Of a DNA stretch of 64,000 nucleotides, positions 21,126 through 40,642 are shown piece by piece. Position 1 is the first letter of the stretch. Every line of letters starts with the position of its first letter. The notes under the pieces are model-generated. The model made no database searches. It saw only the letters and a program-made list of their open reading frames with translations, and was not told where the DNA came from. The stretch is from Xanthomonas sp. NCPPB 1128 (lineage in GTDB: Bacteria > Pseudomonadota > Gammaproteobacteria > Xanthomonadales > Xanthomonadaceae), in contig NZ_LFME01000001.1 in the NCBI RefSeq assembly GCF_001043115.1, positions 62,001-126,000 on the forward strand, in the 5' to 3' direction. The position numbers and the translations under genes were made by a program.

Positions 21126-21139
21126 TGAAAACGATTACA
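21126..21139. promoter_or_regulatory. LacI-type operator in front of the regulator gene
   Basis: TGAAAACGATTACA fits the symmetrical pattern TGWAAWCGWTTWCA at every position. It lies 45-58 bases before the ATG of the LacI-family gene, just after an unusually AT-rich stretch (about 21060-21118) that probably contains the promoter. Position suggests autoregulation. Confidence 0.7.
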
Positions 21140-21183
21140 GTCCGCGCCAGTTTCTCAAGGTCTCTGCCGCGGAGGGCGGCACG

Positions 21184-22197
21184 ATGGCGAAGAGCGCGGT
21201 CACCATCAAAGACGTCGCACGTGAGGCCCGGGTCTCCGTGGCCACCGTGTCGCGTGCGCTCAACGGCCACGAGAACGTGGCCGCGCCGGTGCGGACCCTG
21301 GTCCTGGAAGTGGCCGAGCGCCTGCGCTACAGCCCGCATGCGGCGGCGCGCAGCCTCAGCAGCCGCCGCACCCAGACGCTGGGCGTGGTGCTGCCGGACC
21401 TGTACGGCGAATTCTTCTCCGAACTGATCCGCGGCATCGACGGCGCCGCCCGCGCGCGCCGCCAGCACCTGCTGGTGTCCAGCTACCACGGCGACCCGGA
21501 AGAACAGGGACGGGCGCTGCGGGCAATGCGCGGCCGCGTCGATGGCCTGCTGGTGCTGTCGCCGTATGCCGAGCGCCCCGGCTTCCTCACCGACAACCTG
21601 CCGCAGGCGCTGCCGACGGTGTTGATCAACACCCATCTGCCGGGCACCGAGTACCCGGTGCTGAGCATCGACGACCATGCCGGCGCGGTGGCGATGACCG
21701 AACACCTGCTGGCGATGGGGCATCGCCGCATCGCCTTCATCGGCGGCCCGGAATTGAATTTCGACGCGCGCGAACGCCTGCGTGGCTTCCGCGACGCCAT
21801 CGCGCGCCATCCCGGGCAAGCGCACGGCGAGGAGTTTCCGGGCGACTTCGACGAAGCTTCCGGCTATCGCGCCGGACAGGCGATGCTGCAGGCCGGCGCG
21901 CTGCCCGATGCGGTGTTCGCCGCCAATGACATGACCGCGCTCGGTTGCCTGTACGCCTTCACCCAACGCGATGTGCGCGTGCCCGACGACGTCGCGCTCG
22001 CCGGCTTCGACGACATTCCGCTGGCGCGTTTCGTTCACCCATCCCTCACCACCATGCGCGTCAGCATCGCCGGGCTTGGTGAGCAGGCGATGCATCGCCT
22101 CCTGCACCTGATCGATCGGCCCGACGCGGACGACCGGCAGCGGCAGACCCTGGTTCCTACGTTGGTCGTGCGCGATTCCAGCACGGCCCGTTCCTGA
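21184..22197 (+). CDS. LacI-family transcriptional regulator of the carbohydrate locus
   Basis: Repressor-type protein of 337 aa. Residues about 6-27 are the LacI helix-turn-helix (TIKDVAREARVSVATVSRAL), followed by the hinge helix SPHAAARSLSS and a periplasmic-binding-protein-like effector domain ending GFDDIPLARFVHPSLTTMR. It is placed directly before the TonB receptor and glucanase/transporter genes in the same direction. Three copies of a 14-bp LacI-type palindrome in the window (21126, 25344, 40500) are its likely targets. The inducer is unknown; a sugar released from the imported oligosaccharide is expected. An earlier in-frame start at 20965 would add a non-homologous leader and was rejected. 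Confidence 0.9.
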   Translation: MAKSAVTIKDVAREARVSVATVSRALNGHENVAAPVRTLVLEVAERLRYSPHAAARSLSSRRTQTLGVVLPDLYGEFFSELIRGIDGAARARRQHLLVSSYHGDPEEQGRALRAMRGRVDGLLVLSPYAERPGFLTDNLPQALPTVLINTHLPGTEYPVLSIDDHAGAVAMTEHLLAMGHRRIAFIGGPELNFDARERLRGFRDAIARHPGQAHGEEFPGDFDEASGYRAGQAMLQAGALPDAVFAANDMTALGCLYAFTQRDVRVPDDVALAGFDDIPLARFVHPSLTTMRVSIAGLGEQAMHRLLHLIDRPDADDRQRQTLVPTLVVRDSSTARS

Positions 22198-22223
22198 TGC
22201 GACGCGAACGTTCGCGCCGCATC
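22196..22223. promoter_or_regulatory. 28-bp interrupted palindrome between regulator and receptor
   Basis: Thirteen of fourteen base pairs match in a palindrome centred at 22209/22210, with core CGCGAACGTTCGCG and outer arms GATGCG and CGCATC. It begins within the stop codon of the regulator and lies 79 bases before the receptor ATG. The AACGTT core resembles LacI-family half-sites but the flanks differ from the 14-bp sites. It may be an operator or an RNA hairpin. Confidence 0.5.
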
Positions 22224-22301
22224 GCTTGTTCCACTTCGACCATCGAAGCACCACGCACCACCCATAACGAGCACCACGTCTTTCCTGGAGGGAAACCCCA
22301 C

Positions 22302-25274
22302 ATGCAACACACCCCGCACTCCACCCGGCCCTCGCGCAAGCTGTTGAGCTGCGCTCTCGCCAGTTGCCTGCTGCTGGGCGCCGCGCCGGCATTCGCGCAG
22401 AGCACCGGCGCCACCATTCGCGGCCAGGTCAAGGTCGATTCGGCGCCCGCCGCGTCCGCGCAGGTCACCGCCACCAACCTGGCCACCGGTCTGACCCGCA
22501 GCGTGCAGACCAGCAACAGCACCTATTCGGTCGGCGGCCTGCCGCCGGGTTCCTATCGCATCGACGTCAACGCCGACGGCAAGACCACCTCGCAGAACGT
22601 CACCGTGCAGGTCGGCCAGACCGCGACCCTGGACCTGGGTGTGGGTGGCGAAGCGGCCACCGCCAGCGGGCAGGGCGCGACCACGCTCGACGCGGTACAG
22701 GTGCAGGCGCCGCCGGTGCTGGTGGAAACCCGCACCTCGGAGAACGCCACCTATATTTCCAATGTGCAGATCGAGAAGCTGCCGCAGGCCACGCGCAACT
22801 TCCTGGAGCTGGCTGACAGCGTGCCGAGCGTGCAGTTCCAGCGCGACGCCAAGGGCAACACCACGGTGCGCTCCGGCGCGACCTCGGCCAACGGCACCAA
22901 CGTCTACATCGACGGCATCAGCCAGAAGAACTATGTGCTGACCGGCGGCGTCAGCGGCCAGGATTCCAGCCGTGGCAATCCGTTCCCGCAGTCGGCGATC
23001 GGCGAGTACAAGGTCATCACCTCCAACTACAAGGCCGAGTTCGACCAGGTCAGCAGCGCGGCGATCGTCGCTTCGACCAAGTCCGGCACCAACGATTTCC
23101 ACGGCAGCTTCTTCTGGGATACGACCAACGACGACTGGCGTGCCGAAAGCCCGCTGGAGCGCAAGGCCGGCCAGCGCGACGACTTCTCCGAGACCCAGTA
23201 CGGCGCCACCTTCAGCGGCCCGATCCTCAAGGACCGCGCGCACTTCTTCGTGGCCTACGAGGCCAAGGAATACACCACGCCGAACACGGTGATCCCGGGC
23301 GGCATCTACGCCGACCGCGTCGACCAGTTGCCGGCGCAGCTGCAGCCGCTGGTGGCCACCTACAGCACGCCGTTCAAGGAAGACCTGTACTTCGGCAAGA
23401 TCGACTGGACCCTGGGCGACAACAACCTGTTCGAGCTGACCGGCAAGTACCGCAAGGAAGACGAGCTGTCGGACATCGGCGACACCACCACCTACCAGCA
23501 CGGCAGCAGCAACGGGCAGAAGGAAAAGCGCGCCAACCTGCGTTGGCAGTACAGCGGCGAGGCCTTCCTCAACGATCTGAACCTGAGCTACGAGAGCGCG
23601 TTCTGGACCCAGACCCCGCTCACCGACGGCAGCGGCTATGTGCTGTCCTACGTGCCGCAGGCCGGCAACGAGACCACCATCCTCAGCGCCGGCGCCGGCA
23701 GCAGCTTCCAGAACAAGGGCCAGAAGGGCTGGACCCTGCAGGACGACCTGACCCTCAACAGCCTCGAGTGGCACGGCAGCCACACCATCAAGATGGGGGT
23801 GAAGTACAAGGACATCCAGCTCGATTCGACCCAGATCAATCCGGCCAATCCGCAGTACTACTACAACATCCTCAGCGATGTCGGCACGCCGTACCGGGTG
23901 CGTTTCGGCGACACCGGCGACGGCGGTTCGGTGCAGTCGCAGAACAAGCAGTACGGCATCTATCTGCAGGACGACTGGGAGGTCAACGAGCACCTGACCC
24001 TGAACCTGGGCGTGCGCTACGACTACGAGAAGACCCCGTCGTTCCTCGACTTCGTCACCCCGGCCGACGTCGCCAGCGCGCTGCTGAACTGGCGCAACCT
24101 GGACAACGCCAACTACGACATCGCCAACTACATCAGCACCGGCAACAACCGCAAGGCGTTCAAGGACGCCTGGCAACCGCGCCTGGGCTTCTCCTACGAC
24201 CTGTTCGGCGACCAGGCGCACGTGATCTACGGCGGTGCCGGCCGTGCCTACGACCGCAACCTGTTCGACTACCTGGCGCTGGAGCAGCTCAACAACAACT
24301 TCCGCTCCTACAGCTACTACTTCAGCAGCGCCAACACGCCGTGCCTCGGCCAGCCGTGCGTGGCGTGGGATCCGAACTATGCGACCCAGGCCGGCCTGAA
24401 CGGGCTGGCGGCGTCCAACACCGGTGGCGCCGGCGGTGGCCGCGAGGTCTACCTGATCGATAACAACATCAAGGTGCCGTACTCCGACCAGTTCAGCCTG
24501 GGCATGCGCAACATGGTGCATTTCTGGGGCAACGACTGGTACACGGACGTGACCCTGAGCCGCATCGTCAGCGAGGACGGCTTCGTGTTCCTGCGCGGCA
24601 ATCGCCGTGCCGACGGTTCGTTCTTCCTGCCCGGCACCACCTCCGGCGTGCCGACCGACTCGCCCAATGGCTACAGCGCGATCGTGCTCGGCACCAACGG
24701 CCTGAAGACGCGCAACAACCAACTGGCGCTGAAGCTGGACAAGCCCTACGACAAGGAGTCCGGCTGGGGCCTGACCGTGGCGTACACCTTCTCCGATGCC
24801 AAGGAGAACCGGCAGTACGGCGAGCACTACGCGCTGGACCAGCCGTCGATGGCCGGCTATGGCTGGCGTGAGGCCGGCGGCATCCCGAAGAACCGCCTGG
24901 TGGTCACCGGCATCTACGATCTGCCCTACGACATCACCCTGTCGGCCAAGCTGTCGCTGGCCAGCCAGACCCCGCGTTACGGCACCAACTGCCTGGCGGG
25001 CAACGACCAGTGCTATATCATTCAGTACAAGCCGGATTCCACGCTGGGCTACAAGGAATTCAGCCTGGCGGCGAACAAGGAATGGGATACCGGATCGGGC
25101 ATCAAGTTCAACGTGCGCGCCGATGTCATCAACCTGTTCAACTGGACCAACTATGCGGACTACAACACCGCGACCGGCACCTACGCCGACCTGAACACGG
25201 CGTTCGGCACGCCGAACGGCGTGCTCGCCTCGCCGATGCGGACGTTCAAGCTGTCGTTCGGCTTGAACTGGTAA
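22302..25274 (+). CDS. TonB-dependent outer-membrane receptor, Oar-like
   Basis: Outer-membrane beta-barrel transporter of 990 aa. A signal peptide ends near APAFAQ (residue 33). Residues about 38-115 form a carboxypeptidase-regulatory-like beta domain (GATIRGQVKVDSAPAASAQV), followed by the plug and a barrel ending in the aromatic terminus SFGLNW. This Oar type is common among Xanthomonas sugar-uptake receptors. The ATG at 22302 is preceded by GGAGGG. It lies 104 bases after the LacI-family gene and before a glucanase and ABC importer, so uptake of an oligosaccharide is inferred; ExbB/ExbD encoded at 53.8 kb could power it. Confidence 0.92.
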   Translation: MQHTPHSTRPSRKLLSCALASCLLLGAAPAFAQSTGATIRGQVKVDSAPAASAQVTATNLATGLTRSVQTSNSTYSVGGLPPGSYRIDVNADGKTTSQNVTVQVGQTATLDLGVGGEAATASGQGATTLDAVQVQAPPVLVETRTSENATYISNVQIEKLPQATRNFLELADSVPSVQFQRDAKGNTTVRSGATSANGTNVYIDGISQKNYVLTGGVSGQDSSRGNPFPQSAIGEYKVITSNYKAEFDQVSSAAIVASTKSGTNDFHGSFFWDTTNDDWRAESPLERKAGQRDDFSETQYGATFSGPILKDRAHFFVAYEAKEYTTPNTVIPGGIYADRVDQLPAQLQPLVATYSTPFKEDLYFGKIDWTLGDNNLFELTGKYRKEDELSDIGDTTTYQHGSSNGQKEKRANLRWQYSGEAFLNDLNLSYESAFWTQTPLTDGSGYVLSYVPQAGNETTILSAGAGSSFQNKGQKGWTLQDDLTLNSLEWHGSHTIKMGVKYKDIQLDSTQINPANPQYYYNILSDVGTPYRVRFGDTGDGGSVQSQNKQYGIYLQDDWEVNEHLTLNLGVRYDYEKTPSFLDFVTPADVASALLNWRNLDNANYDIANYISTGNNRKAFKDAWQPRLGFSYDLFGDQAHVIYGGAGRAYDRNLFDYLALEQLNNNFRSYSYYFSSANTPCLGQPCVAWDPNYATQAGLNGLAASNTGGAGGGREVYLIDNNIKVPYSDQFSLGMRNMVHFWGNDWYTDVTLSRIVSEDGFVFLRGNRRADGSFFLPGTTSGVPTDSPNGYSAIVLGTNGLKTRNNQLALKLDKPYDKESGWGLTVAYTFSDAKENRQYGEHYALDQPSMAGYGWREAGGIPKNRLVVTGIYDLPYDITLSAKLSLASQTPRYGTNCLAGNDQCYIIQYKPDSTLGYKEFSLAANKEWDTGSGIKFNVRADVINLFNWTNYADYNTATGTYADLNTAFGTPNGVLASPMRTFKLSFGLNW

Positions 25275-25282
25275 GCAAGGCC

Positions 25283-25313
25283 GCCGCGGCACCCGTGCAC
25301 CGGGCGCCGCGGC
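25283..25313 (+). terminator. Hairpin between receptor and glucanase operon
   Basis: GCCGCGGC at 25283-25290 and again at 25306-25313 (self-complementary) can pair across a 15-base loop just after the receptor stop. A T-rich stretch (TTATTTTTT) follows 15 bases later, too far for a classic terminator. It may reduce read-through into the downstream operon. Confidence 0.45.
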
Positions 25314-25343
25314 GATGCGGAAGTGGGTTATTTTTTGCGTGCA

Positions 25344-25357
25344 TGTAAACGATTTCA
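25344..25357. promoter_or_regulatory. LacI-type operator in front of the glucanase/ABC operon
   Basis: TGTAAACGATTTCA fits TGWAAWCGWTTWCA fully. It lies only 12 bases before the ATG at 25369 and just after a T-rich stretch, so a bound repressor would block the promoter or early transcription. Confidence 0.75.
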
Positions 25358-25368
25358 CGGGGGGCACG

Positions 25369-26994
25369 ATGAAGAAGCAGGGCAGTTTCATCAGGTTTTC
25401 GTTGATGGTGATGGCGGCAGGGGTGCTGCTGACGGCGTGCAAGAAGACCGACGAGGAGCCGAAGGCGGTGGAGAAGAAGCCGGTCAAGGTGATCCTGGTC
25501 GAGGCCGAGTTGCCGCCGAAACTGTCGAAGCCGGAATTGCCGCCCCTGTTCGAGGACATCGAACGCCGCACCTTCCAGTTCTTCTGGGACACCACCAACG
25601 AACAGAACGGCATGGCGGTGGACCGCTATCCGTCGCGGCCCTTCGCGTCCATCGCCTCGATCGGCTTCGCCCTTACCGTCTATCCGATCGGTTACGAAAA
25701 CGGCTGGATCAGCCGCGAGCAGGCGGTGCAGCGCACCCTGACCACGCTGCGCTTCCTGCGCGACGTGCCGGTCGGCCCGCAGCGCACCGGCCGCGCCGGC
25801 TACAAGGGCTTCTACTACCACTTCCTGGACATGCAGAAGGGGCTGCGCTACGACCAGTGGGTGGAATTGTCGACCATCGACACCGCGCTGTTGATGATGG
25901 GGGTGCTGTTCGCCCAGTCCTACTACGAAGGCGACACCGCCGACGAGAAGGAGATCCGCCAGATCGCCGATACCCTGTATCGTCGCGTGGACTGGCCGTG
26001 GATGCAGCAGCGCAAGCCGCTGATCACGATGGGCTGGTACCCCGAGCGCGGCTTCATCCAGCACGACTGGATGGGCTACAACGAAGGCATGATGGTGTAT
26101 CTGCTGGCGTTGGGTTCGCCCACGCATCCGATCGAGCCGGACGCGTGGCAGGAATGGACGCGCACCTACAACAAGGACTGGGGCGTGTACTACGGCCAGG
26201 AATACCTGGCGTTCGGCCCGCTGTTCGCGCACCAGTACAACCACGTCTGGATCGACTTCCGCGACATCCAGGACCAGTACATGCGCGAGCACGGCATCGA
26301 CTACTTCCTCAACAGCCGCCGCGCCACGCTGGCGCAGCGCGAGTACGCCATCGACAATCCGATGAAGTGGAAGGAGTACGGCGAGAACGTGTGGGGCCTG
26401 ACCGCCAGCGACGGTCCGCAGAACACCACCCAGGAGTACCGCGGCGAACAGCGCCAGTTCTTCCACTACCGCACGCGCGGCGCCGGCCTGTTCGAGGCCT
26501 TCGACGACGGCACCATCGCGCCGACCGCGGCGGTGTCCTCAATCGTGTTCGCGCCGGAGGTGGTGATCCCGGCGACCCAGGAAATGCACAAGCGCTTCGG
26601 CGATTTCGTGTATTCGAGCTACGGCTTCCTGGATTCGTTCAACCCCAGCTTCAACTACGATATTCCGCTCAAGACCGGCCGCATGATCCCCAACCGCGGC
26701 TGGGTGGCCGGCGACTACATCGGCATCGATCAGGGTGCGATCGTCACCATGATCGCCAACTACCGCAACGAGTTCGTCTGGAACGTGATGAAGAAGAACA
26801 AGTACCTGCGCACCGGGCTGGAGCGCGCCGGCTTCACCGGCGGCTGGCTGACCCCGGAGGGCGAGGCCCAGCCGTTGCCGAAGAAGGACGAGCAGGCGGC
26901 CAATGCGCGTGCGCTGGGCATCGCCGAGTCGCGCGCCGCCGCCGCCGAGGCGCAGCCCAACCCCGCCCAGCGCCAGCCGCAGCAGCCGGAATGA
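25369..26994 (+). CDS. GH144-like (glycoamylase-like, COG5368/PF10091) lipoprotein glucanase
   Basis: Lipoprotein of 541 aa with lipobox LLTAC (Cys24). From about residue 60 it follows the (alpha/alpha)6 glycoamylase-like pattern: RRTFQFFWDTTN, ELSTIDTALLMMG, GSPTHP, FAHQYNHVWIDFRDIQD, NSRRATLAQREYAID, NVWGLTASDGP and DDGTIAPTAAVSSIVFAPE. Characterised members of this group are beta-1,2-glucan hydrolases (GH144), so this enzyme may cleave beta-1,2-glucan or sophoro-oligosaccharides in the periplasm. The C-terminal about 45 residues are Ala/Gln/Pro-rich. The Met at 25369 starts a clean lipoprotein signal; the frame opens earlier at 25315. Its stop overlaps the next gene (ATGA). Confidence 0.85.
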   Translation: MKKQGSFIRFSLMVMAAGVLLTACKKTDEEPKAVEKKPVKVILVEAELPPKLSKPELPPLFEDIERRTFQFFWDTTNEQNGMAVDRYPSRPFASIASIGFALTVYPIGYENGWISREQAVQRTLTTLRFLRDVPVGPQRTGRAGYKGFYYHFLDMQKGLRYDQWVELSTIDTALLMMGVLFAQSYYEGDTADEKEIRQIADTLYRRVDWPWMQQRKPLITMGWYPERGFIQHDWMGYNEGMMVYLLALGSPTHPIEPDAWQEWTRTYNKDWGVYYGQEYLAFGPLFAHQYNHVWIDFRDIQDQYMREHGIDYFLNSRRATLAQREYAIDNPMKWKEYGENVWGLTASDGPQNTTQEYRGEQRQFFHYRTRGAGLFEAFDDGTIAPTAAVSSIVFAPEVVIPATQEMHKRFGDFVYSSYGFLDSFNPSFNYDIPLKTGRMIPNRGWVAGDYIGIDQGAIVTMIANYRNEFVWNVMKKNKYLRTGLERAGFTGGWLTPEGEAQPLPKKDEQAANARALGIAESRAAAAEAQPNPAQRQPQQPE

Positions 26995-28301
26995 GCACAG
27001 CACGCATGATCGGTCGTTGGTTGTCGTTGGGTCTGTTGGTCGTGGCGGTGTGCGGCTGCGCACGCGCGCCGCAGGGCGAGGTGGTGCGATTCTGGGCAAT
27101 GGGCCGCGAGGCCGAGGTGGTGGCCGAACTGATCCCGCAGTTCGAGAAGGAGAATCCCGGCATCCACGTGGACATCCAGAACATCCCGTGGACCGCCGCG
27201 CACGAGAAGCTGCTCACCGCCTTCGCCGCCGACGGCCTGCCGGACGTGTGCCAGCTGGGCAACACCTGGATCCCGGAATTCGCCGAACTGGGCACGCTGC
27301 AGCCGCTGCAGCCCTATGTCGACCGCTCCAAGGTGGTCGATCCGAAGGACTACTTCCCCGGCATCTGGGACACCAGCGTCATCGATGGCCATCTCTACGG
27401 CATCCCCTGGTACGTGGACACGCGCCTGCTGTTCTACCGCAAGGACATGCTGCGCGACGCCGGGGTGACCAAGCTGCCGCAGACCTGGGCCGAGTGGGAG
27501 CAGGCGATGGCGGCGGTGAAGAAGCACGTCGGGCCCAAGCGCTACGCGATCCTGATGCCGCTCAACGAGTTCGAGCAGCAGCTGTCGCTGGGTCTGCAGA
27601 TGCCTGATCCGCTGCTGCGCGACCACGACAACTACGGCAATTTCGAAAGCCCCGGCTTCCGCAAGGCGCTGGCGTTCTACGCCAACATGTTCGACCAGGG
27701 CTGGGCGCCGAAGATGTCGGAGACGCAGATCTCCAACGTCTGGGACGAGTTCTTCAACGGCTTCTATGCGTTCTACATCTCCGGCCCGTGGAACATCCGC
27801 GAGTTCCGCAAGGTGCAGCCGCCGGCGCTCAAGGACCAATGGGGCACCATGCCGCTGCCCGGTCCGGACGGTCCCGGTGCCGGGATCGCCGGCGGCACCA
27901 GCCTGGTGATCTTCCGCAAGTCCGAGCACAAGGATGCGGCCTGGAAGCTGATCGAGTTCCTGTCGCGGCCGCAGATCCAGGCGCGCTTCCACGCGCTGAT
28001 CGGCGACATGCCGCCGCGGCGCAGCACCTGGGCGTATCCGTCGCTGGCCGACGATCCGCTGGCGCATGCGTTCCGCGATCAGTTGGAGCGGGTCAAGCCG
28101 GCACCGAAGGTCCTGGAGTGGGAGCGCATCGTGCAGGAGATGCGGCTGGCCACCGAGCGGGTGGTGCGCGGCGGCGAACCGCAGGAGAAGGCGATGCGGG
28201 AACTGGACAAGCGGGTCGACGAGATCCTGGAGAAACGCCGCTGGATCCACCAGCAGCATCGCGAAGGCACGGCGGCGCCGGCCGCGGGAGCGGCGCCATG
28301 A
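26991..28301 (+). CDS. ABC sugar transporter, solute-binding lipoprotein
   Basis: Family 1 extracellular solute-binding protein of 436 aa, with a lipoprotein signal ending VCGC (Cys23). Typical elements are VVRFWAMGREAEVVAELIPQFEKENPGI, WTAAHEKLLTAFAADGLPDV and DGHLYGIPWYVDTRLLFYRKDM. It captures an oligosaccharide in the periplasm for the two downstream permeases. The ATG overlaps the glucanase stop and the TGA overlaps the permease start, so the four genes form one operon. The last about 25 residues are Ala/Pro-rich. Confidence 0.92.
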   Translation: MSTARMIGRWLSLGLLVVAVCGCARAPQGEVVRFWAMGREAEVVAELIPQFEKENPGIHVDIQNIPWTAAHEKLLTAFAADGLPDVCQLGNTWIPEFAELGTLQPLQPYVDRSKVVDPKDYFPGIWDTSVIDGHLYGIPWYVDTRLLFYRKDMLRDAGVTKLPQTWAEWEQAMAAVKKHVGPKRYAILMPLNEFEQQLSLGLQMPDPLLRDHDNYGNFESPGFRKALAFYANMFDQGWAPKMSETQISNVWDEFFNGFYAFYISGPWNIREFRKVQPPALKDQWGTMPLPGPDGPGAGIAGGTSLVIFRKSEHKDAAWKLIEFLSRPQIQARFHALIGDMPPRRSTWAYPSLADDPLAHAFRDQLERVKPAPKVLEWERIVQEMRLATERVVRGGEPQEKAMRELDKRVDEILEKRRWIHQQHREGTAAPAAGAAP

Positions 28302-29179
28302 AGCGCGGTTCCCTGATCGGCTGGCTGTTCGCCGGCCCGGCGCTGATCGTGATCGGCGTGTTCTTCGGCCTGCCGGTGCTGTCGGCGCTGGCGCTGAGCG
28401 TCACCGACTTCGACCTGTATTCGCTGGCCGACCGCCACAACCTGCGCTTCGTCGGCTTCGGCAACTACCTCGAGTTGCTGCAGACGCCGATGTTCTGGAA
28501 GTCGCTGTGGAACACCACGTACTTCGTGATCGTCGGCGTGCCGCTGTCCATCGGCGCCTCGCTGGGCGCGGCGCTGCTGCTGAACGCGCCGGTGGCACGG
28601 TTCAAGGCGCTGTTCCGCACCGCCTTGTTTGCGCCGGTGGTGACCACCCTGGTGGCGGTGGCGGTGATCTGGCGCTACCTGTTCCACACCAGCTACGGCC
28701 TGGTCAACTACGGCCTGGCGCACCTGGGTATCGGCCCGATCGACTGGCTGGGCGACCCGCACTGGGCGATGCCGACCATCATGCTGTTCGCGGTGTGGAA
28801 GAACTTTGGCTACAACATGGTGATCTTCCTCGCCGGCCTGCAGGCCATCCCGCAGGACCTGTACGAGGCGGCGCGCATCGACGGCGCCTCGAAGTGGCGG
28901 CAGTTCCTGCACATCACCTTGCCGATGCTGGGGCCGGTGTTGCTGGTGGTTGGGGTGATCACCGTGTCCGGCTACTTCCAGCTGTTCGCCGAACCCTATG
29001 TGATGACCCGCGGCGATCCCCTGCAGAGCACGGTCAGCGTGCTGTATTACATGTTCGAGGAAGGTTTCAAGTGGTGGAACCTCGGCCGCGCCTCGGCGGT
29101 GGCGTTCCTGCTGTTCCTGATCATCCTGGGAGTGACGACGGTGATGCTGCGCTTCGGCCGCAAGAGGGACCTGGTATGA
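28298..29179 (+). CDS. ABC sugar transporter permease, MalF/UgpA type
   Basis: Inner-membrane permease of 293 aa with six hydrophobic segments. The EAA loop reads EAARIDGASKWRQFLHITLPML, the docking site for the ATPase. No ATPase gene follows the operon; the MalK/UgpC-type ATPase at 40643 is the natural partner. Starts and ends with four-base overlaps with its neighbours. Confidence 0.93.
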   Translation: MKRGSLIGWLFAGPALIVIGVFFGLPVLSALALSVTDFDLYSLADRHNLRFVGFGNYLELLQTPMFWKSLWNTTYFVIVGVPLSIGASLGAALLLNAPVARFKALFRTALFAPVVTTLVAVAVIWRYLFHTSYGLVNYGLAHLGIGPIDWLGDPHWAMPTIMLFAVWKNFGYNMVIFLAGLQAIPQDLYEAARIDGASKWRQFLHITLPMLGPVLLVVGVITVSGYFQLFAEPYVMTRGDPLQSTVSVLYYMFEEGFKWWNLGRASAVAFLLFLIILGVTTVMLRFGRKRDLV

Positions 29180-30012
29180 GCCGGGAGATCGGCGCCTCGC
29201 GCTGGAACACGCTGCTGGTCAACGGCGGGCTGCTGCTGCTCGCCGTGATCAGCCTGGCGCCGCTGTTGTGGATGGTGTCGGTGTCGTTCATGCCGGCGGG
29301 GCAGGCCAGCCGCTTCCCGCCGCCGATGTTGCCCACCGGCGCCACCCTGGCCAATTACGGCGAGCTGTTCTCGCGCACCGGCATGGCCCGCAACTTCGCC
29401 AACAGCTTGCTGGTGTCGTGCGCGATCACCTTCGGCTCGCTGCTGATCAACACCATGGCCGGCTATGCCTTCGCCAAGCTGCGCTTCGTCGGCAAGGAAC
29501 GGATCTTCCAGATCCTGCTGGCGGCGCTGGTGATCCCGGCGCAGGTGGCGATGCTGCCGTTGTTCCTGTTGATGAAGCAGCTGCATCTGGTTAACAACTT
29601 CGGCGGCGTGGTCGTGCCGGCGCTGGCGACGGTGTTCGGCATCTTCCTGGTGCGCCAGTACGCGCGTTCCATCCCGGACGAACTGCTGGAGGCCGCCCGC
29701 ATCGACGGCGCCGGCGAGCTGCGGATCTTCTTCCAGATCGTGCTGCCGATGCTCAAGCCGGTGCTGGTGACGCTGACCATCTTCACCTTCATGGCGGCGT
29801 GGAACGACTTCATGTGGCCGCTGATCGTGCTGACCGACCAGGAGCACTACACCTTGCCGGTGGCGCTGGCGGCGCTGTCGCGCGAGCACATCATGGACGT
29901 GGAGATGATGATGGCGGGTGCCGTGGTCACCGTGATCCCGGTACTGGCGCTGTTCCTGGCGTTGCAGCGCTACTACATCCAGGGCCTGCTGCTCGGCAGC
30001 GTGAAGGGGTGA
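29176..30012 (+). CDS. ABC sugar transporter permease, MalG/UgpE type
   Basis: Inner-membrane permease of 278 aa with six hydrophobic segments and the EAA loop EAARIDGAGELRIFFQIVLPML. It pairs with the preceding permease as a heterodimeric channel. The stop is followed by 15 bases and then a 108-bp tandem repeat array, so the operon either ends here or reads through to the discoidin-domain gene. Confidence 0.93.
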   Translation: MSREIGASRWNTLLVNGGLLLLAVISLAPLLWMVSVSFMPAGQASRFPPPMLPTGATLANYGELFSRTGMARNFANSLLVSCAITFGSLLINTMAGYAFAKLRFVGKERIFQILLAALVIPAQVAMLPLFLLMKQLHLVNNFGGVVVPALATVFGIFLVRQYARSIPDELLEAARIDGAGELRIFFQIVLPMLKPVLVTLTIFTFMAAWNDFMWPLIVLTDQEHYTLPVALAALSREHIMDVEMMMAGAVVTVIPVLALFLALQRYYIQGLLLGSVKG

Positions 30013-33300: not shown

Positions 33301-33560
33301 GGTTCGACGGCAAGGGCGTGGCGATCGAGCAACTGCGCACACCGCAGGGGCCGCTGAGCTACCAGCTGCGCCGGCAGAAGAACCGCTTGCTGCTGAACAT
33401 CCCCGAGGGCCTGCGCATGCCCAGCGGCGGCCTGGTGCTGCCGTGGCCATACCCGGGCGAACCCGGCCGCACCCTGGTCAACGGCGAAACGGCGCAGTGG
33501 GAGCACGGAGAGTTACGGATCCGTACGCTGCCGGCGGATGTGCAGGTGGATGTGCGGTGA
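30399..33560 (+). CDS. Large exported discoidin-domain protein with C-terminal helical (alpha/alpha)6-type domain
   Basis: Protein of 1053 aa with a signal peptide ending near AHAVAAPP. Residues about 28-195 resemble a carbohydrate-binding beta-sandwich (LDSFSDLDKWQIVVSN...VCFDQLTLTPL). Residues about 205-320 fit a discoidin (F5/8 type C) module (KPDTVWYSGNAKNQTIMLDLGKV). The middle is beta-rich, and residues about 600-930 are helical with motifs such as SYSRSWIRDGAMISEG, DDRGSDPVPENDSHGELIY and YWDNFWALRGY, like inverting glycosidases or phosphorylases with an (alpha/alpha)6 barrel. Acidic residues in WIRDGAMISEG and PENDSHGE are candidate catalytic sites. Exact family unknown. Neighbourhood points to oligosaccharide breakdown in the periplasm. 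A second Met at 30411 is an alternative start. Confidence 0.75.
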   Translation: MRDGMATTCARALLAMLGLAAAHAVAAPPTSTVTLDSFSDLDKWQIVVSNQVTASTRLVQAPSGGRAKALCLDYDFNGVSGYAGIRRTLPIDYPDNYQFAFQLRGDSPSNDLQFKLVDASGDNVWWVNRPRYDFPKQWSTVTFKKRQIDKAWGPSPEKELTRSAQIEFTIYNQVGGAGTVCFDQLTLTPLPPQDTSPLTMKVSTDTAPALEQRIADGKPDTVWYSGNAKNQTIMLDLGKVREFGGAKVQWAPGVYASRYTVQGSADGRSWRELRQVTAGNGGTDWLALPETEARYVRFDLQDGPSFRYGIADIALQPLAFAATQNDFIKSVAAQSTRGWFPRGFSGEQPYWTIVGLDGGREQGLVGEDGAIEVGKGGFSIEPFLVLDGKRLSWADVKTAQSLQDDYLPIPSVDWTHDNAALRVTAFVQGEPEQAQLVARYRLSNPSKQPHDYTLALAVRPFQVNPPSQFLNTVGGVSSIRSLAFAGTQVQVNGQPRVFAVQKPDAAYASAFDAGIDVERLGTDASGLPQQAQDPDGLASGALLYRGRLAPGEVREVALVIPQTGNAALPAGFDAARAQQQVAAQWHEKLDRVQLHVPAQGKAVTDTLRTALAHMLISRIGPRLQPGTRSYSRSWIRDGAMISEGLLRLGRADVVREYVEWYAPYQFANGMVPCCVDDRGSDPVPENDSHGELIYSVADYYRYSGDRAFLEQMWPHVLGAYTYMEQLRLSERTDENRARNAAFYGMMPVSISHEGYSAKPMHSYWDNFWALRGYKDAVSIAAELGRIDDAARFATSRDQFRQDLYASLDAATQQHHIDFLPGSAELGDFDPTSTTIALAPGGEQGRLPQALLDNTFERYWGEFVGRRDGTREWKDYTPYEWRNVSAFVRLGWRERAWEATQFFFKDRTPQAWNQWAEVVSRTPRKPFFLGDLPHAWVASDFVRSVLDMFAYARDVDDSLVLAAGLPTDWFDGKGVAIEQLRTPQGPLSYQLRRQKNRLLLNIPEGLRMPSGGLVLPWPYPGEPGRTLVNGETAQWEHGELRIRTLPADVQVDVR

Positions 33561-34099: not shown

Positions 34100-34218
34100 A
34101 GCGGGAACACGCCCAAGCGCACGATGCAGTGCGCAGCATATTGCCGATCAACACAGCGCGGCCGCCATCACCAACAAAAGAAAGCGCCGGCATGCCGGCG
34201 CTTCTGCTTTGCTGTTTC

Positions 34219-34262
34219 GAGTCCCGAGTCCCGAGTCCCGGGTCCCGGGTCCCGGGTCCCGG
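34219..34262. repeat. Tandem heptamer array GTCCCGA/GTCCCGG
   Basis: Six exact 7-base units (two GTCCCGA, four GTCCCGG) run head to tail just downstream of the convergent eda stop. Isolated units also occur at 34269-34278, inside the eda end. Confidence 0.85.
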
Positions 34263-34264
34263 CT

Positions 34265-34918
34265 TTACCGGGTCCCGGCAACTATCGCCGCCGCCTTCGC
34301 CGAGCTCTCGCGTACCTTGTCCCATTCGCCGTTGGCCAGCCAGTCCTTGGGCACCATCCACGAGCCGCCGATGCAGACGACGTTGGGCTGGGCCAGGTAC
34401 TCGGCGGCGGTGCTTTCGCCGATGCCGCCGGTGGGGCACAGCTTGAGCTCGGCCAGGGGGCCGGCCAGGCCCTTGAGCATCGCCAGGCCGCCGACGGCGG
34501 AGGCGGGGAACAGCTTGCACACGCGGAAGCCGCGCTCCATCAGCGCCAGCAGTTCGCTCGGGGTGGCCGCGCCCGGCACCACCGGCAGCGGCGCCTGCGC
34601 CAGGGCGTCGGCCAGAGTCGGGGTGGTCCCGGGGGTGACGATGAAATCGGCACCGGCGTCGATCGACTGTTGCAGCTGGGTGGCGTTGAGTACGGTGCCG
34701 GCGCCGATCACGATGTCCGGCAACTCGCGCTTGAGCATCGCCAGCGCGTCCATCGCCACCGGCGTGCGCAGGGTCAGTTCGATCGCCGGCAGGCCGCCTT
34801 CGAGCAGCGCTGCCGACACGCGGCGCGCCTCTTCCAGGCTGTGGACGGTGACGACGGGCAGGATGCCGGCCGCGCGCAGCAGTTGTTCGGCCTTGGTCTG
34901 GTGTTCGGCGATGGTCAT
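34265..34918 (-). CDS. eda: KDPG/KHG aldolase
   Basis: 2-keto-3-deoxy-6-phosphogluconate aldolase of 217 aa, normal length. The Schiff-base lysine is Lys135 in CKLFPAS, with Glu47 in ELTLRT, and GAGTV, VTPGTTPT and PTGGIGE motifs in place. It cleaves KDPG into pyruvate and glyceraldehyde 3-phosphate, last step of the Entner-Doudoroff route. The ATG at 34918 fits the family N-terminus; a longer form from 34960 adds 14 residues without support. Last gene of the zwf-glk-pgl-edd-eda cluster; the stop region is entered by a heptamer repeat. Confidence 0.95.
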   Translation of the reverse strand: MTIAEHQTKAEQLLRAAGILPVVTVHSLEEARRVSAALLEGGLPAIELTLRTPVAMDALAMLKRELPDIVIGAGTVLNATQLQQSIDAGADFIVTPGTTPTLADALAQAPLPVVPGAATPSELLALMERGFRVCKLFPASAVGGLAMLKGLAGPLAELKLCPTGGIGESTAAEYLAQPNVVCIGGSWMVPKDWLANGEWDKVRESSAKAAAIVAGTR

Positions 34919-34999
34919 GAGCGTCTCGGTTGCGAAGGGGGCGAGGCCCGGGCCGCGCACGGCCAGGGCAGGGTAGGCGCGCGGCGGTAGCGCGGCCGG

Positions 35000-36919
35000 T
35001 CAGGCGTCCTTGGATTCGTGCGGCGCGGCGGCGGCCTCGGCATCGCGGCCCAGGTCGTACTCGGCGTCGTAGTTCCACAGGTCGCCGTCGGCGGCCGGCG
35101 GGCCGCAGGAGATCGACAGCGCGCCCTGGTCGGCGGGGCCGACCATGCGGCGGTTGAGCCCGAACAGGTTGCGGCCCATGTCGTGCGCGGCCGGCGCGGT
35201 GTTCGGCGCCAGCGGCCGCGCTGCCCATTCGGCGGCATCCACCAGCACTTCCAGGGTGCCGGCCTCGCCGTCCAGGCGCACGATGTCGCCTTCGCGCACC
35301 CGTGCCAGAGGACCACCACGCGCCGCTTCCGGGGTCACGTGGATGGCCGCGGGGAACTTGCCGGAGGCGCCGGACAGGCGCCCATCGGTGACCAGCGCCA
35401 CGCGCCGGCCCTGGTTCTGCAGCAGGCCCAGCAGCGGCGCCAGCGAATGCAGTTCCGGCATGCCGTTGGCCTGCGGGCCCTGGTAGCGCAGCACCACCAC
35501 GAAGTCGTGCGGCAGCGCGCCGGCGGCGTGCAGCTTGTTCAGCGCCTGCGGCGCGTCGATCACCACGGCCGGGGCTTCGATGGTGCGGAACTGCGGCTTC
35601 ACCGCCGACAGCTTGATCAGCGAGCGGCCGAGGTTGCCGCGCAGCAGGCGCAGGCCGCCCTGCGCCTCGAACGGGTTGGAGGCAGGACGCACCACCGCCT
35701 CGTCGGCGCTCTTGGCCGGACTCGGCACGTAGGCCAGCTTGCCGTCCTGCACGCACGGCTCGTCGCCGTAGGCGCGCATGCCGCCGGGCACGATGGTGGC
35801 CAGGTCGTCGTGCATCAGCCCGGCGTCCATCAGCTCGCGGAACACGAAGCCGATGCCGCCGGCGGCGGCGAAGTGGTTCACGTCGGCCTCGCCGTTCGGG
35901 TACACCCGCGCCAGCAGCGGCACCAGCTGCGACAGCGCGTCCAGGTCGTCCCAGGTCAGCACGATGCCGGCCGCGCGCGCCACCGCCAGCCAGTGGATGG
36001 TGTGGTTGGTGGAGCCGCCGGTGGCCATCAGCGCGACCACGGCGTTGACGATGGCGCGCTCGTCGATCAAGCGGCCGAGCGGGCGGAAGTCGCTGCCCAG
36101 CGCGGTGATGCGCAGCGCGCGTTCGGTCGCCTGCTGGGTCAGCGCCTCGCGCAGCGGGGTGCCGGGATTGACGAAGGAGGCGCCGGGCAACTGCACGCCC
36201 ATCGCTTCCAGCAGCACCTGGTTGGAATTGGCGGTGCCGTAGAAGGTGCAGGTGCCGGGCGCGTGATAGGACGCCGATTCGGCTGCCAGCAGTTCCTCGC
36301 GGGTGGCCTGGCCGGCGGCGTAGCGCTCGCGCACCTCGGCCTTCTGCTTGTTGGGGATGCCCGGGGTCATCGGCCCGGCCGGCACGAACACCGCCGGCAG
36401 ATGGCCGAAGGCCAGCGCGCCGATCAGCAGGCCGGGCACGATCTTGTCGCACACGCCCAGGTACAGGCTGGTGTCGAACATGTCGTGGCTCAGGCCGATG
36501 GCGGTGGCCTGGGCGATCACGTCGCGCGAGAACAGCGACAGTTCCATGCCGGGCCGACCCTGGGTCACGCCGTCGCACATCGCTGGCACGCCGCCGGCCA
36601 CCTGCGCGGTAGCGCCGAGCGCGCGCGCGGTGTTGCGGATGATCTCCGGATAGTGCTCGAACGGCTGGTGCGCCGAGAGCATGTCGTTGTAGGCGGTGAT
36701 GATGCCGAGGTTGGGGGTGATCCCGCCTTCCAGCCGGCTCTTGTCGGTGGGGCCGCAGGCGGCGAAGCCGTGGGCGAGGTTGCCGCAGCTCAGGCGGCTG
36801 CGGAACGGGCCGTCGCGCAGCGCGGCGTCGATGCCGGCCAGGTAGGCGCGCCGCGACGGCGCACTGCGCTGGCGGATGCGTTCGGTGATCGCGTGGAGGG
36901 TCGGATGCAGGGTGGTCAT
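35000..36919 (-). CDS. edd: 6-phosphogluconate dehydratase
   Basis: IlvD/Edd-family dehydratase of 639 aa. Motifs include [56 protein letters not shown] and [17 protein letters not shown]; the conserved cysteines in MCDG and GTCTFYG hold the iron-sulfur cluster. It converts 6-phosphogluconate to KDPG in the cytoplasm. Separated from eda by 81 bases and from pgl by a 120-base gap occupied by an inverted heptamer repeat, so mRNA structure could tune expression between the two parts. Confidence 0.96.
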
Positions 36920-36946
36920 TGGCTGAAGTGGCTATGGGGGGAGAGG

Positions 36947-37037
36947 CGGGACCCGGGACCCGGGACCGGGGACCCGGGAAAAGCAAAGGCAGGCGGTGCT
37001 GCTGTTCCGGGTCCCGGGTCCCGGGCCCCGGGTCCCG
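36947..37037. repeat. Inverted pair of heptamer arrays between edd and pgl
   Basis: GGGACCC units at 36947-36978 face the complementary GGGTCCC-type units at 37007-37037, around a spacer of 28 bases rich in A and G. The pair can form a long GC-rich hairpin within the operon; its right arm ends just before the pgl stop codon. Confidence 0.8.
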
Positions 37038-37039
37038 CC

Positions 37040-37759
37040 TCACTCACACCAATGCACGCGCAGGCGCGCACCAGGCGTATCGAAGGCGACGCGGATCGGG
37101 TACTCGTGCGGGTCGGTGCCGGCCAGCGCGCGCTCCAGCACCTCCAGCTTCTGCTTGCCGCGCAACAGCAGCATGCGCTGGCCGATCGGCGCCAGGCCGG
37201 CCGGGGTCAGGGTGATGCGCAGCGGCCAGGTGTTGGCGCCGGGGCAGCCGGTGGCGTCGAGCGCGGCATAGGGCAGCGGGTTGGTCAGCGCCTTGTTCAA
37301 ATCGGTGGCGCCGGGGAACAGCGAGGCGGTGTGGCCGTCGCCGCCCATGCCCAGCACCGCCATGCACGCGGCCGGGGCGTGCTGCGCGTGCAGGTTGGCC
37401 GCGTGCACGCAGTCCTGCAGCGGCTTGCCGACCCGCACCAGCGGCTCGAAGCGCGCATCCTCGGTCCGGTCGAGCAGGCTGTGCCGGATCAGGTAGGCGT
37501 TGCTGTCGCTGTCCTGCGGCGACAGCCAGCGCTCGTCGACCAGGCCGACCTCCAGTTTCGACCAGTCCAGCGGCAGTTCGGCCAGCGCCTGGTACACCGG
37601 CGCCGGGGTGGTGCCGCCGGACAGCAGCAGGCGCGCGCCGCCGCGACGCTGGATCTCCTCGCGCAGCGCGGTGCCGATCTCGGCTGCCGCCGCGTCGATC
37701 CATTCGTCCGGATCGTCGTAGCGGATCAGCGTGATGCGGTCGGACAGCGTGGGGCTCAT
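37040..37759 (-). CDS. pgl: 6-phosphogluconolactonase
   Basis: SOL/DevB-type lactonase of 239 aa. LLLSGGTTPAPVY, VGLVDERW and the signature VLGMGGDGHTASLFPG are all present. It hydrolyses 6-phosphogluconolactone to 6-phosphogluconate. The start overlaps the glk stop (ATGA). Confidence 0.95.
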   Translation of the reverse strand: MSPTLSDRITLIRYDDPDEWIDAAAAEIGTALREEIQRRGGARLLLSGGTTPAPVYQALAELPLDWSKLEVGLVDERWLSPQDSDSNAYLIRHSLLDRTEDARFEPLVRVGKPLQDCVHAANLHAQHAPAACMAVLGMGGDGHTASLFPGATDLNKALTNPLPYAALDATGCPGANTWPLRITLTPAGLAPIGQRMLLLRGKQKLEVLERALAGTDPHEYPIRVAFDTPGARLRVHWCE

Positions 37760-38763
37760 GCAATGGCTCCTGGGGATTGCCGCGCGGCGTCCACCGCGTA
37801 GGCGGCGGCGCCGAGCAGGCCGGGACGGGGATGGATCACCGCCAGCGACGGCACCCGCGCCATGATCGACGAAAACCGGCCCTTGTGCTCGAAGCGCTGG
37901 CGGAACCCGGAATGCTGGATCGCATCGAGCATCTTCGGCACCAGCCCGCCGGTCAGGAACACGCCGTCCCAGGCGCCCTGCATCAGCACCAGGTCACCGG
38001 CGATGGCGCCGAACACGGCGCAGAACACGTCCACGGTGCGCATCGCCCGGTAGTCGCCCTGCGCGGCGCGCGCGGTGATGTCCTCCGGCTGCAGCGGGCC
38101 CGGGTCGTCGCCGGCCATCTCGCTGAGCGCGCGATGGATGTTGACCAGGCCGGGGCCGCAGATCAGGCGCTCGTTGGAGACGCGGCCGAACTGCTGCGAC
38201 AGCAGTTCCAGGATGCGGATCTCCTCCGGCGTGCCCGGCGGGAAGCTGACGTGGCCGCCCTCGGTCTCCAGCGGAAAGCAGCGCCCGCCGCGCATCAGCA
38301 GGCCGCCCACGCCCAGGCCGGTGCCGGGGCCGATCACGCCGTAGTTGCGCGGCACCTCGATCGGCGACGGCGTCCAGCTGGCGCCGCCGACCTGGACCAC
38401 GTCCTGCGGCCGCAGCAGGCTGATCGCCATCGCCTGCGCGGCGAAGTCGTTGATCAGGTGCAGTTCGTCGAAGCCGAGCATGGCGCGGGTGCGCGCCCGC
38501 GAGATCACCCAAGGATGGTTGGTGATGCGCGCCTCGCCGCCGTCGACGCGGCCGGCGACCGCGAAGGTGCCGCTGCGCGCGTCCACCCCGGTCTGTTCCA
38601 GGTAGTGGCGGGCGGCGTCGCCCAGCGACGGGAATTCCACCACCGAGTAGGTCTGGGTGCTGTCGTCAAGCAGCGGCACCGAGGCGTCGAGATCGGCGAG
38701 GGCGAAACGGGCATTGGTGCCGCCGATGTCGGCGACCAGCACCGGGCGCTGCGGCGCGCTCAC
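37756..38763 (-). CDS. glk: Glucokinase
   Basis: Bacterial glucokinase of 335 aa with the ATP-binding LVADIGGTNARFAL, the glucose-binding INDFAAQA, GPGTGLGVGGL and ETEGGHVSF motifs. It phosphorylates cytoplasmic glucose to glucose 6-phosphate for zwf. The start is GTG at 38763, overlapping the zwf stop as GTGA, so the two are translationally coupled. Confidence 0.95.
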   Translation of the reverse strand: MSAPQRPVLVADIGGTNARFALADLDASVPLLDDSTQTYSVVEFPSLGDAARHYLEQTGVDARSGTFAVAGRVDGGEARITNHPWVISRARTRAMLGFDELHLINDFAAQAMAISLLRPQDVVQVGGASWTPSPIEVPRNYGVIGPGTGLGVGGLLMRGGRCFPLETEGGHVSFPPGTPEEIRILELLSQQFGRVSNERLICGPGLVNIHRALSEMAGDDPGPLQPEDITARAAQGDYRAMRTVDVFCAVFGAIAGDLVLMQGAWDGVFLTGGLVPKMLDAIQHSGFRQRFEHKGRFSSIMARVPSLAVIHPRPGLLGAAAYAVDAARQSPGAIA

Positions 38764-40223
38764 GGCGCGACCTTCGGCGCGGCGCCGGACTGGTCGCAGG
38801 AGACGTAGGCCTGCGCTTCCTCCGGCCCCCAGCTGCCGGCGGGGTAGGGCTGCAGCGGCAGCAGCGCCTGCGCCCAGGCGGCGCTGACGCTGTCGATCCA
38901 GGCCCAGGCGGCGCGCACCTCGTCGTCGCGCACGAACAGTGCGTGGTTGCCGTTGAGCGCGTCGAGCATCAGCCGCTCGTAGGCGATGCGCCGGTGCAGG
39001 CCGGTGGGCACCGACAGTTCCAGTTCTAGCGGCTGCAGTTCCAGCGCACCCCATTCCGGGCCGGCCAGGCTGCTCATCAGCCCCAGTTCGATGTTCTCCT
39101 GCGGCTGCAGCTGGAAGGTCAGCCGGTTCGGCGCCACCTGCTGCGCGGCCGGGCGCTCGAACAGCCAGTGGGTGACCGGCTTGAGCGTGACCACCACGCG
39201 GGTGGAGCGCTCGGCCAGGCGCTTGCCGGTGCACAGGCGGAACGGCACGCCGGCCCAGCGCCAGTTGTCGATGTAGGCGGTGACCGCGGCGAAGGTTTCC
39301 ACGTCGCTGCCTTCCGGCGGCTGGTAGGCCTGCGCCGGCTGGCCGTTGATGGTGCCGGCGGTGTAGCGCCCGCGCACGCTGTCGCGGGCGGCATGCTCTG
39401 CGCTCAGCGGGCGCAGCGCGCGCAGCACCTTGACCTTCTCGTCGCGGATGCGGTCGGCTTCCAGCGACGCCGGCGGCTCCATCGCCACCAGGCACAGCAA
39501 CTGCAGGATATGGCTCTGCACCATGTCGCGCAGCGCGCCGGAGCGTGCGTAGTAGGCGTCGCGGCCGTCCACGCCTTCGCTTTCGGCGACCAGGATATCC
39601 ACCGACTCGATGTAGTTGCGGTTCCACACCGCTTCCAGCAGCGTGTTGCCGAAGCGCAGCGCGATCAGGTTCTGCACCGCGGCCTTGCCCAGGTAGTGGT
39701 CCAGGCGGAACACGCGGTCCTCGTCGATCAGCGCGCCGATCGCCTGCACGATCTCGCGGGCGCTGTCCGAATCGTGGCCGATCGGCTTCTCCAGCATCAG
39801 CCGGTGCGGCGCGGCCAGGGCGCCGCCCAGGGCCAGGCCCTGGCAAGTGCTGATGTACAGCCCCGGCGGGATCGCCAGGTAGCTCACGCAGCGGCGTGCG
39901 GTCAGGTCGCGCACCGCGGCGGCCACCGATTCGGCATCGCGCAGGTCCACCGAGCGGTAGTCGATGCGCGCCAGCAGCGCCTGCACGATCGATTCGCCGA
40001 TCTGCGGCATTGCCGCCTGCAGGCGCGGCTTGAGGAGCTCGTGGAACTTGGCGGTGTCGTGCGGCGACAGCGCCAGCGCGCGGATGCGGAAGTCTTCCGG
40101 CAGGAAGCCGTCGTCGAGCATGCGCAGCAGCGAGGGGAACAGATAGCGCTGGGCCAGATCGCCGGTGGCGCCGAACAGCAGGAAGGTATCGTGCATCGAC
40201 CGGGTTTCGGTTTCGGGTGACAT
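38760..40223 (-). CDS. zwf: Glucose-6-phosphate 1-dehydrogenase
   Basis: NADP-dependent dehydrogenase of 487 aa, first gene of the Entner-Doudoroff operon. LFGATGDLAQRYLFPSL is the coenzyme loop and RLDHYLGKAAVQN the active site with the catalytic His. The ATG at 40223 was chosen; a second Met at 40196 (MHDTFLLFGATGDL) is a real alternative since the domain begins right there. The upstream open frame to 40394 lacks homology. The regulatory region is shared with the divergent transporter ATPase gene and holds a LacI-type site. Confidence 0.95.
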   Translation of the reverse strand: MSPETETRSMHDTFLLFGATGDLAQRYLFPSLLRMLDDGFLPEDFRIRALALSPHDTAKFHELLKPRLQAAMPQIGESIVQALLARIDYRSVDLRDAESVAAAVRDLTARRCVSYLAIPPGLYISTCQGLALGGALAAPHRLMLEKPIGHDSDSAREIVQAIGALIDEDRVFRLDHYLGKAAVQNLIALRFGNTLLEAVWNRNYIESVDILVAESEGVDGRDAYYARSGALRDMVQSHILQLLCLVAMEPPASLEADRIRDEKVKVLRALRPLSAEHAARDSVRGRYTAGTINGQPAQAYQPPEGSDVETFAAVTAYIDNWRWAGVPFRLCTGKRLAERSTRVVVTLKPVTHWLFERPAAQQVAPNRLTFQLQPQENIELGLMSSLAGPEWGALELQPLELELSVPTGLHRRIAYERLMLDALNGNHALFVRDDEVRAAWAWIDSVSAAWAQALLPLQPYPAGSWGPEEAQAYVSCDQSGAAPKVAP

Positions 40224-40642
40224 GGTGTCGATCACCTGGGGGCTAGGAGTGACGTGGCGTGGGAAAGCGAACGGCGGGAACGGCCTGTATCCGGCCGGTT
40301 CGGGCGAAGGCGTGACGCGGGAGGGCCGCCAAGCGGAGACGCACGATCCAGGAGATGAATACGACTGCCAGACCTCTGAGCATACCTCTCCCATGCCTCA
40401 TGCTGCAGGCCGGACTTCATCCGGCTGGGTGACGACGGCGCGCCGGATCGGCGGCTGGCGGATCGCATTGCGTGCCCTCCCAGGCTCGATGTTGCCCCGT
40501 GAAAACGGTTACATGGCAGAATACCGCATCGCGATGCATTGTTGCCTGCGCGCGGGCACGATGCGACCCGCATTCGTATGCACTGCCTTCGGGAGGGACC
40601 GGCGGCAGCCCGTTCCTCCTGCCGGAAACCGGATACCGCACC
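40224..40642. promoter_or_regulatory. Divergent regulatory region of zwf and the sugar-ABC ATPase
   Basis: No gene is supported in these 419 bases. The stretch carries a LacI-type operator at 40500-40513 and a perfect 12-bp palindrome GCATCGCGATGC at 40526-40537. Both lie about 105-145 bases before the ATPase start and about 275-315 bases from the zwf start. Confidence 0.6.
40500..40513. promoter_or_regulatory. LacI-type operator, near-consensus
   Basis: TGAAAACGGTTACA matches TGWAAWCGWTTWCA with one deviation (G at position 9). It is almost the same as the site before the LacI-family gene (TGAAAACGATTACA), which suggests the same regulator controls the transporter ATPase and possibly zwf. 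Confidence 0.65.

Follow-up and report, generated by a model that had tools for sequence, protein, structure and literature searches.

We analysed a 64,000-nucleotide stretch of Xanthomonas sp. NCPPB 1128 DNA (contig NZ_LFME01000001.1, positions 62,001 to 126,000; the window from here on), with a focus on three similar 14-bp palindromes and on the LacI-family regulator gene, lacI, that starts at 21184. Comparison of sequences makes it likely that this regulator is a local repressor of a regulon for the utilisation of β-1,2-glucan. Without inducer, the repressor would occupy TGWAAWCGNTTWCA operators that overlap or adjoin core promoters and would keep four sets of genes shut off: lacI itself; the gene of a TonB-dependent receptor (TBDR), an operon of a GH144 glucanase-type protein with an ATP-binding cassette (ABC) importer, or both; a separate gene for a MalK-type ATPase; and genes of β-glucosidase type, which are two GH3 genes here and a GH1 gene in other genera. 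The inducer would be an oligosaccharide from β-1,2-glucan, either sophorose or a short sophoro-oligosaccharide, that releases the repressor. Cleavage of the glucan would then take place at the cell surface, and the imported products would be broken down to glucose for glucokinase and the Entner-Doudoroff enzymes. Binding, repression, the inducer and the specificity of the enzymes in this strain are what we infer in this scheme. An earlier note on this DNA had proposed one regulon from import to central metabolism. For the regulator, the glucanase and importer genes and the ATPase gene this is borne out by conservation across genera; for the Entner-Doudoroff genes it is suggested by gene order elsewhere, and in the genus of the window their membership is a prediction. 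The regulon is also larger than first proposed, as two GH3 genes elsewhere in the genome have the operator too.

Operators and their conservation

The note had placed related 14-mers at 21126, 25344 and 40500, and all three are present there (O1, O2 and O3 in Table 1). As it claimed, they have the form of LacI-type operators, that is even palindromes with a central CG, with O3 imperfect at one position. The shared consensus it gave, TGWAAWCGWTTWCA, is exact for O1 and O2, but it does not strictly cover O3 because of the G at position 9 of TGAAAACGGTTACA, which makes one mismatch. The regulator itself combines a LacI helix-turn-helix domain with an effector domain of the periplasmic-binding type, both over the cut-off.

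Allowing up to two mismatches, the window contains 3 matches compared to 0.18 expected, and none of 100 shuffles gave 3. Across the whole genome TGWAAWCGNTTWCA is found at 6 distinct places, three of them inside the window, while base composition predicts about 0.065 and the reversed pattern is found at none. The random density that the note had named as a refutation is thus not what the genome scan gives. Chance matches in a GC-rich genome would fit the behavior of the relaxed motif TGNAANCGNTTNCA, which sits at background level when one mismatch is allowed (61 matches per strand versus 72 for the reversed control). We dropped this motif as evidence, and the operator signal depends on the A/T positions since the relaxed form is not enriched. 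Given the count of the strict motif, and conservation figures that exceed those of permuted patterns, we regard chance as a virtually negligible explanation.

Conservation was followed in a family set of 247 genomes, in which a strong LacI match is one with an E-value of 1e-90 or better. The exact motif occurs in 126 of the 141 genomes with a strong match versus 21 of the 106 others; these counts ignore relatedness, and the 141 include two genomes, G170 and G226, that match best to a paralogue. The conservation upstream of orthologues that the note had asked about is found at each gene in turn. All 41 loci compared, our own among them, have a site with no more than one mismatch within 150 bp upstream of lacI, and in 33 it is exact. 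A second, overlapping set drawn from records named Xanthomonas, Stenotrophomonas or Pseudoxanthomonas, plus a small number with other names, has such a site in 80 of 80 loci (57 exact), so that an autoregulatory site is found at every locus of both sets. With the same tolerance, there is a site upstream of the TBDR gene in 13 of 39 loci, of the GH144 gene in 21, and of one or both in 33. For the ATPase gene, 34 of 38 genomes have an exact site at a distance of 250 bp or less, and 100 permuted patterns gave 0. The four remaining genomes are G226 with one mismatch, G170 and G053 with two and G136 with five. These 38 come from 44 genomes, of which G030, G016, G197, G002, G020 and G040 were excluded with the gene outside the stretch. 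The ATPase site is also exact in G017, G064, G186, G241, G179 and G209, in which 75 kb to 1.3 Mb separate lacI from zwf and the ATPase gene.

The two GH3 genes extend the set of likely targets. A site at C41:19481 in the genome of the window overlaps the start of one of them (GH3_1), and a one-mismatch site at C4:40441 lies upstream of the other (GH3_2), directly after a TAGAAT hexamer both here and in most relatives. With at most one mismatch, the GH3_2 site is present in 19 of the 21 genomes examined, four of them exact, with G053 and G136 as the misses; G017 and G030 were left out of the 22 genomes whose match reached at least 60%. The translation of GH3_2 has no evident signal peptide, which suggests a cytoplasmic enzyme. 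Other sites of this genome lie upstream of a DUF2628 gene (C33:27662) and of a gene for a DUF3829 lipoprotein-like protein (C23:78597). The GH3_1, DUF2628 and DUF3829 sites recur in genomes of the same genus, partly with different bases at the variable positions.

A natural control is provided by G170 and G226, two genomes of the genus of the window in which sites are altered or missing. Neither has a lacI orthologue, their best match being a paralogue of the C37 type described below (60%), and a 40-kb stretch around their importer genes gave no match to lacI or to the TBDR. Both keep GH144, the binding protein, the permeases, the F5/8-type-C (F5/8-C) protein, the ATPase and the Entner-Doudoroff genes. 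The operator before GH144 is degenerate in both, the ATPase site has become TGGAAACGGTTGCA in G170 (two changes) and TGGAAACGGTTACA in G226 (one change), and the GH3_1 site was not found in the 1.5 kb examined in either.

Table 1. Operators, genes and promoter elements of the window discussed in the text.
Feature	Position	Strand	Basis or remark
Operator O1, TGAAAACGATTACA	21126..21139	.	lacI ATG 44 bp further on; autoregulatory position
LacI-family regulator, 337 aa	21184..22197	+	PF00356, PF13377; recognition-helix core VSVATVSR
TBDR, OMP_b-brl_4 type	22302..25274	+	Pfam
Operator O2, TGTAAACGATTTCA	25344..25357	.	glucanase ATG 11 bp further on
GH144 protein, lipoprotein-like N-terminus	25369..26994	+	PF10091; best PDB match 8xul (XCC2207)
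ABC substrate-binding protein	27030..28301 (exact start not fixed)	+	PF01547; matches 3uor and Lin1841 structures
ABC permease 1	28298..29179	+	PF00528, gene call
ABC permease 2	29176..30012	+	PF00528, gene call
F5/8-C domain protein, marginal GDE_C match	30399..33560 (start 30399 or 30495)	+	in 38/41 loci
eda, 2-keto-3-deoxy-6-phosphogluconate (KDPG) aldolase	34265..34960	-	PF01081
edd, 6-phosphogluconate dehydratase	35000..36919	-	PF00920
pgl-like, 6-phosphogluconolactonase	37040..37759	-	gene order and translation
glk, glucokinase	37756..38763	-	PF02685
zwf, glucose-6-phosphate dehydrogenase	38760..40223	-	TIGR00871 over cut-off
34-bp block conserved in genus, between O3 and zwf	40357..40390	.	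alignment of 19 genomes
Presumed ATPase-gene promoter	40492..40522	+	TTGCCC 40492-40497, 19-bp spacer containing O3, CAGAAT 40517-40522
Operator O3, TGAAAACGGTTACA	40500..40513	.	ATPase ATG at 129 bp, zwf ATG at 276 bp
MalK/UgpC-type ABC ATPase	40643..41767	+	sole OB_MalK-domain match in genome; divergent from zwf

Contrary evidence and the C37 paralogue

The background frequency of the relaxed motif is one of several observations that weigh against the proposed regulon or against its control by this regulator. The exact motif is missing from fifteen of the 141 genomes with a strong LacI match, and in six of the 39 loci (G136, G144, G012, G131, G127 and G040) both the TBDR and the GH144 gene are without a site. 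In G053 and G136 the regulator is present, but neither the ATPase gene nor GH3_2 has a good site upstream. The genes behind the conserved DUF2628 and DUF3829 sites have no evident role in sugar use. In the two genomes that lost the regulator, the GH3_2 site survives as TGTAAGCGTTTTCT with one change, and G226 has the exact motif upstream of a DUF481 gene (L159 1501-1514); both findings count against the window regulator as the only user of such sites. Finally, a paralogue on C37 has the same recognition-helix core and a similar operator, TGCAAGCGGTTACA, so the operators are possibly shared.

This paralogue is 62% identical to the window regulator. Any of the 13 LacI-family proteins of the genome could be considered as reader of the motif, but the recognition helix narrows them to these two, with 11 of the 13 having a core other than VSVATVSR. 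The same core is found in 40 of 41 regulators, the other being VSVASVSR in G040. In a tree of 46 proteins, five paralogues form a separate group with full support. The paralogue, or both proteins, may bind the operators described here so that the regulons overlap, and the GH3_2 site that persists with one change in the two paralogue-only genomes points the same way as the shared core. However, the operator of the paralogue itself has two differing positions and is the same in four of the five genomes read (G000, G226, G111 and G238, with a changed form in G170), the GH144 and GH3_1 sites are degraded or lost in the paralogue-only genomes, and the window type of lacI has the motif upstream in every locus tested. 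Taking these together, we consider a share of the paralogue in these operators doubtful, though not so doubtful as to be set aside, and prefer the window regulator as their repressor. The cluster on C37 (L134 1106-10155) consists of an F5/8-C protein, the LacI paralogue, a TBDR and a protein of the tryptophan-halogenase family.

Likely substrate and comparison with known systems

The genes for LacI, GH144, the ATPase and zwf are located as the earlier note described. Its layout of regulator, glucanase and importer also agrees with the genes found, but it omitted the TBDR gene that lies between lacI and the glucanase gene. The name glucanase was apt and can be made more exact. The GH144 protein aligns with XCC2207 of X. 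campestris (PDB 8xul) over residues 17 to 537 of 541, and it is the counterpart of that enzyme and probably a β-1,2-glucanase. XCC2207 is active on β-1,2-glucan, while the other polysaccharides shown are marked N.D. (PMC12102758). The TBDR is probably the counterpart of XCC2208, judging by the order of the locus tags next to XCC2207; XCC2208 is described as a receptor without a canonical plug (PMC1790865).

The importer operon shows no ATPase gene, and the one match to the OB_MalK domain in the genome is the ATPase gene behind O3. The best match of the binding protein is 3uor (E 4.3e-220), a related protein of X. citri that we take to carry the name MalE, so that a relative of this importer presumably has a maltose name there. 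That name, together with the MalK/UgpC-like ATPase, could suggest a regulon for maltose or trehalose. The next-best match is Lin1841 (E 3.5e-68), which binds sophoro-oligosaccharides (PMC12369401). This match speaks against maltose or trehalose, as do the activity reported for XCC2207 and the hydrolases linked to the operator, which are of GH3 and GH1 types. We find a maltose or trehalose regulon very improbable and retain β-1,2-glucan as the likely substrate. GH3_2 matches the Lin1840 and 5xxl structures, but other GH3 structures score better.

Similar sets of genes are described for Listeria innocua (Lin1839-1841) and Streptomyces griseus (SGR_2423-2427; PMC12369401). They share with our locus a related solute-binding protein, ABC permeases and a GH3 or GH1 β-glucosidase, and the S. 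griseus cluster also has a gene of a β-1,2-glucanase family. The present system differs from these descriptions in the addition of a TBDR and GH144, in having the ATPase and the β-glucosidase-type genes apart, and in the one operator that joins all. For X. campestris, the counterpart of the window GH144 (XcSGL, XCC2207) is described in PMC12102758 as an enzyme. As for regulation, the local LacI sugar regulons presented in PMC4052901 have the same autoregulated LacI, even palindrome with a central CG, and sites before transport and hydrolase genes, whereas here the targets concern β-1,2-glucan and extend, judged by position, to the Entner-Doudoroff cluster. That study also presents Caulobacter GluR, a predicted LacI regulator of zwf-pgl-edd-glk close to β-glucoside regulators. 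Compared by description, GluR is likewise a LacI protein tied to Entner-Doudoroff genes, but it has a 20-bp motif and a regulon of central metabolism.

We found no earlier account of the regulon in the literature searched, although an entry in RegPrecise or in the supplements of PMC4052901 is possible; the main text of the latter has no occurrence of 'Xanthomon', 'Stenotrophomon' or 'glucan'. The kind of system is an ordinary one, and what is predicted here is a new circuit. It would give a regulatory circuit and a likely substrate to a locus of Xanthomonas, Stenotrophomonas, Pseudoxanthomonas and relatives, and it predicts a response to bacterial β-glucan for the lone MalK-type ATPase and perhaps also for the Entner-Doudoroff operon. 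The degradation and reuse of the glucan of X. campestris become testable questions.

Reach of O3 and further sites

The earlier note had O3 linking the ATPase gene with the Entner-Doudoroff genes. The ATPase half of this stands with the exact sites in 34 of 38 genomes, and the other half has the gene order of seven genomes in its favor, from which the genus of the window can be judged only by extension. In an alignment of 19 genomes (13 of the same genus as the window), every row has CAGAAT, and TTGCC is retained in 14, the exceptions being G170, G226, G209, G179 and G214. The pair is presumed to form the ATPase-gene promoter, with O3 inside its spacer. The 34-bp block closer to zwf is also kept in the regulator-less G170 and G226 and is a candidate zwf promoter or site of another regulator. 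The gene between edd and glk is one that we take to be pgl.

A GH1 gene stands beside the operator, opposite to the ATPase gene, in 14 genomes. In seven of these (G144, G023, G241, G125, G072, G012 and G052) the operator is followed by GH1 and then by zwf. The gap between the ends of the GH1 and zwf alignments is 6 to 37 bp in the first five, about 120 bp in G012 and about 320 bp in G052. The six of these genomes other than G241 were read past zwf; all show the order glk, pgl, edd, and five have eda too. The other seven (G008, G148, G061, G021, G035, G131 and G127) have no adjacent zwf, although glk and pgl come after GH1 in G148. Because the operator precedes GH1 and then zwf, the Entner-Doudoroff genes are probably part of the regulon in some genera, and very probably under the operator where GH1 and zwf abut. 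This arrangement also rejects the idea that they are mere neighbors in all relatives. The idea that the operator tracks zwf was rejected as well, as it tracks the ATPase gene.

In the genus of the window GH1 is absent at the O3 position, and operator control of the Entner-Doudoroff genes is plausible there. It could instead be that in this genus O3 controls the ATPase gene only, with zwf and the Entner-Doudoroff genes under their own promoter and regulator, and we give this nearly the same weight as its opposite, though somewhat less. The presumed promoter elements around O3 are aimed at the ATPase gene, which is the closer of the two start codons (129 bp versus 276 bp to zwf), the conserved 34-bp block lies on the zwf side, and the operator remains beside the ATPase gene in the seven genomes without an adjacent zwf. 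Against it are the seven genomes with the operator before GH1 and zwf, the GH1-glk-pgl order of G148, and G158 (L081 17175-19652), which has a further arrangement of this divergent promoter: the ATPase gene is on one side of the operator and glk on the other, at about 220 bp, and zwf gave no match in this stretch. By inspection, CAGAATA also reads TATTCT on the opposite strand, a possible -10 element towards zwf that abuts the operator as at GH3_2, and this too would speak for an effect of O3 on zwf.

A broader reading would be that in Xanthomonadaceae the main inducible control of the glucokinase/Entner-Doudoroff operon is a sensor of β-1,2-glucan and not of glucose or KDPG, and that a GH3 gene elsewhere replaced the missing GH1 under the same operator. 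X. campestris makes cyclic β-1,2-glucan, reported as a factor in infection (PMC11228985), and because of this the regulon could in the same reading recycle or sense the cell's own glucan or that of its kin. If true, catabolic capacity would be set by a bacterial glucan. We offer this as speculation and think it improbable in its full extent.

Some details of the distal sites were seen in passing. The operator at GH3_1 (L018 9482-9495) spans the start codon of the gene and encodes its first residues. Those before the DUF2628 and DUF3829 genes are at L017 9663-9676 and L016 8598-8611, the former gene adjoining glycerate kinase, and a one-mismatch site of this genome (L020 4497-4510; exact by the relaxed pattern) lies upstream of a DUF481 gene. 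Five distal sites of other genomes adjoin none of the six distal targets of our own: G238 1130437, G085 C2:562126, G058 4434561, G153 1323146 and G170 3298573. In G085, G058 and G153 (L156, L157 and L161, at about 1501) the motif stands beside the same gene, where our own genome has no exact counterpart site; its protein begins near PRPLDPRLLVELSS and was matched by no query. The F5/8-C protein next to the importer genes of the window, probably a glycosidase by its sequence, has its gene in 38 of the 41 loci with the regulator, and a relative 35% identical to it is found in the C37 cluster.

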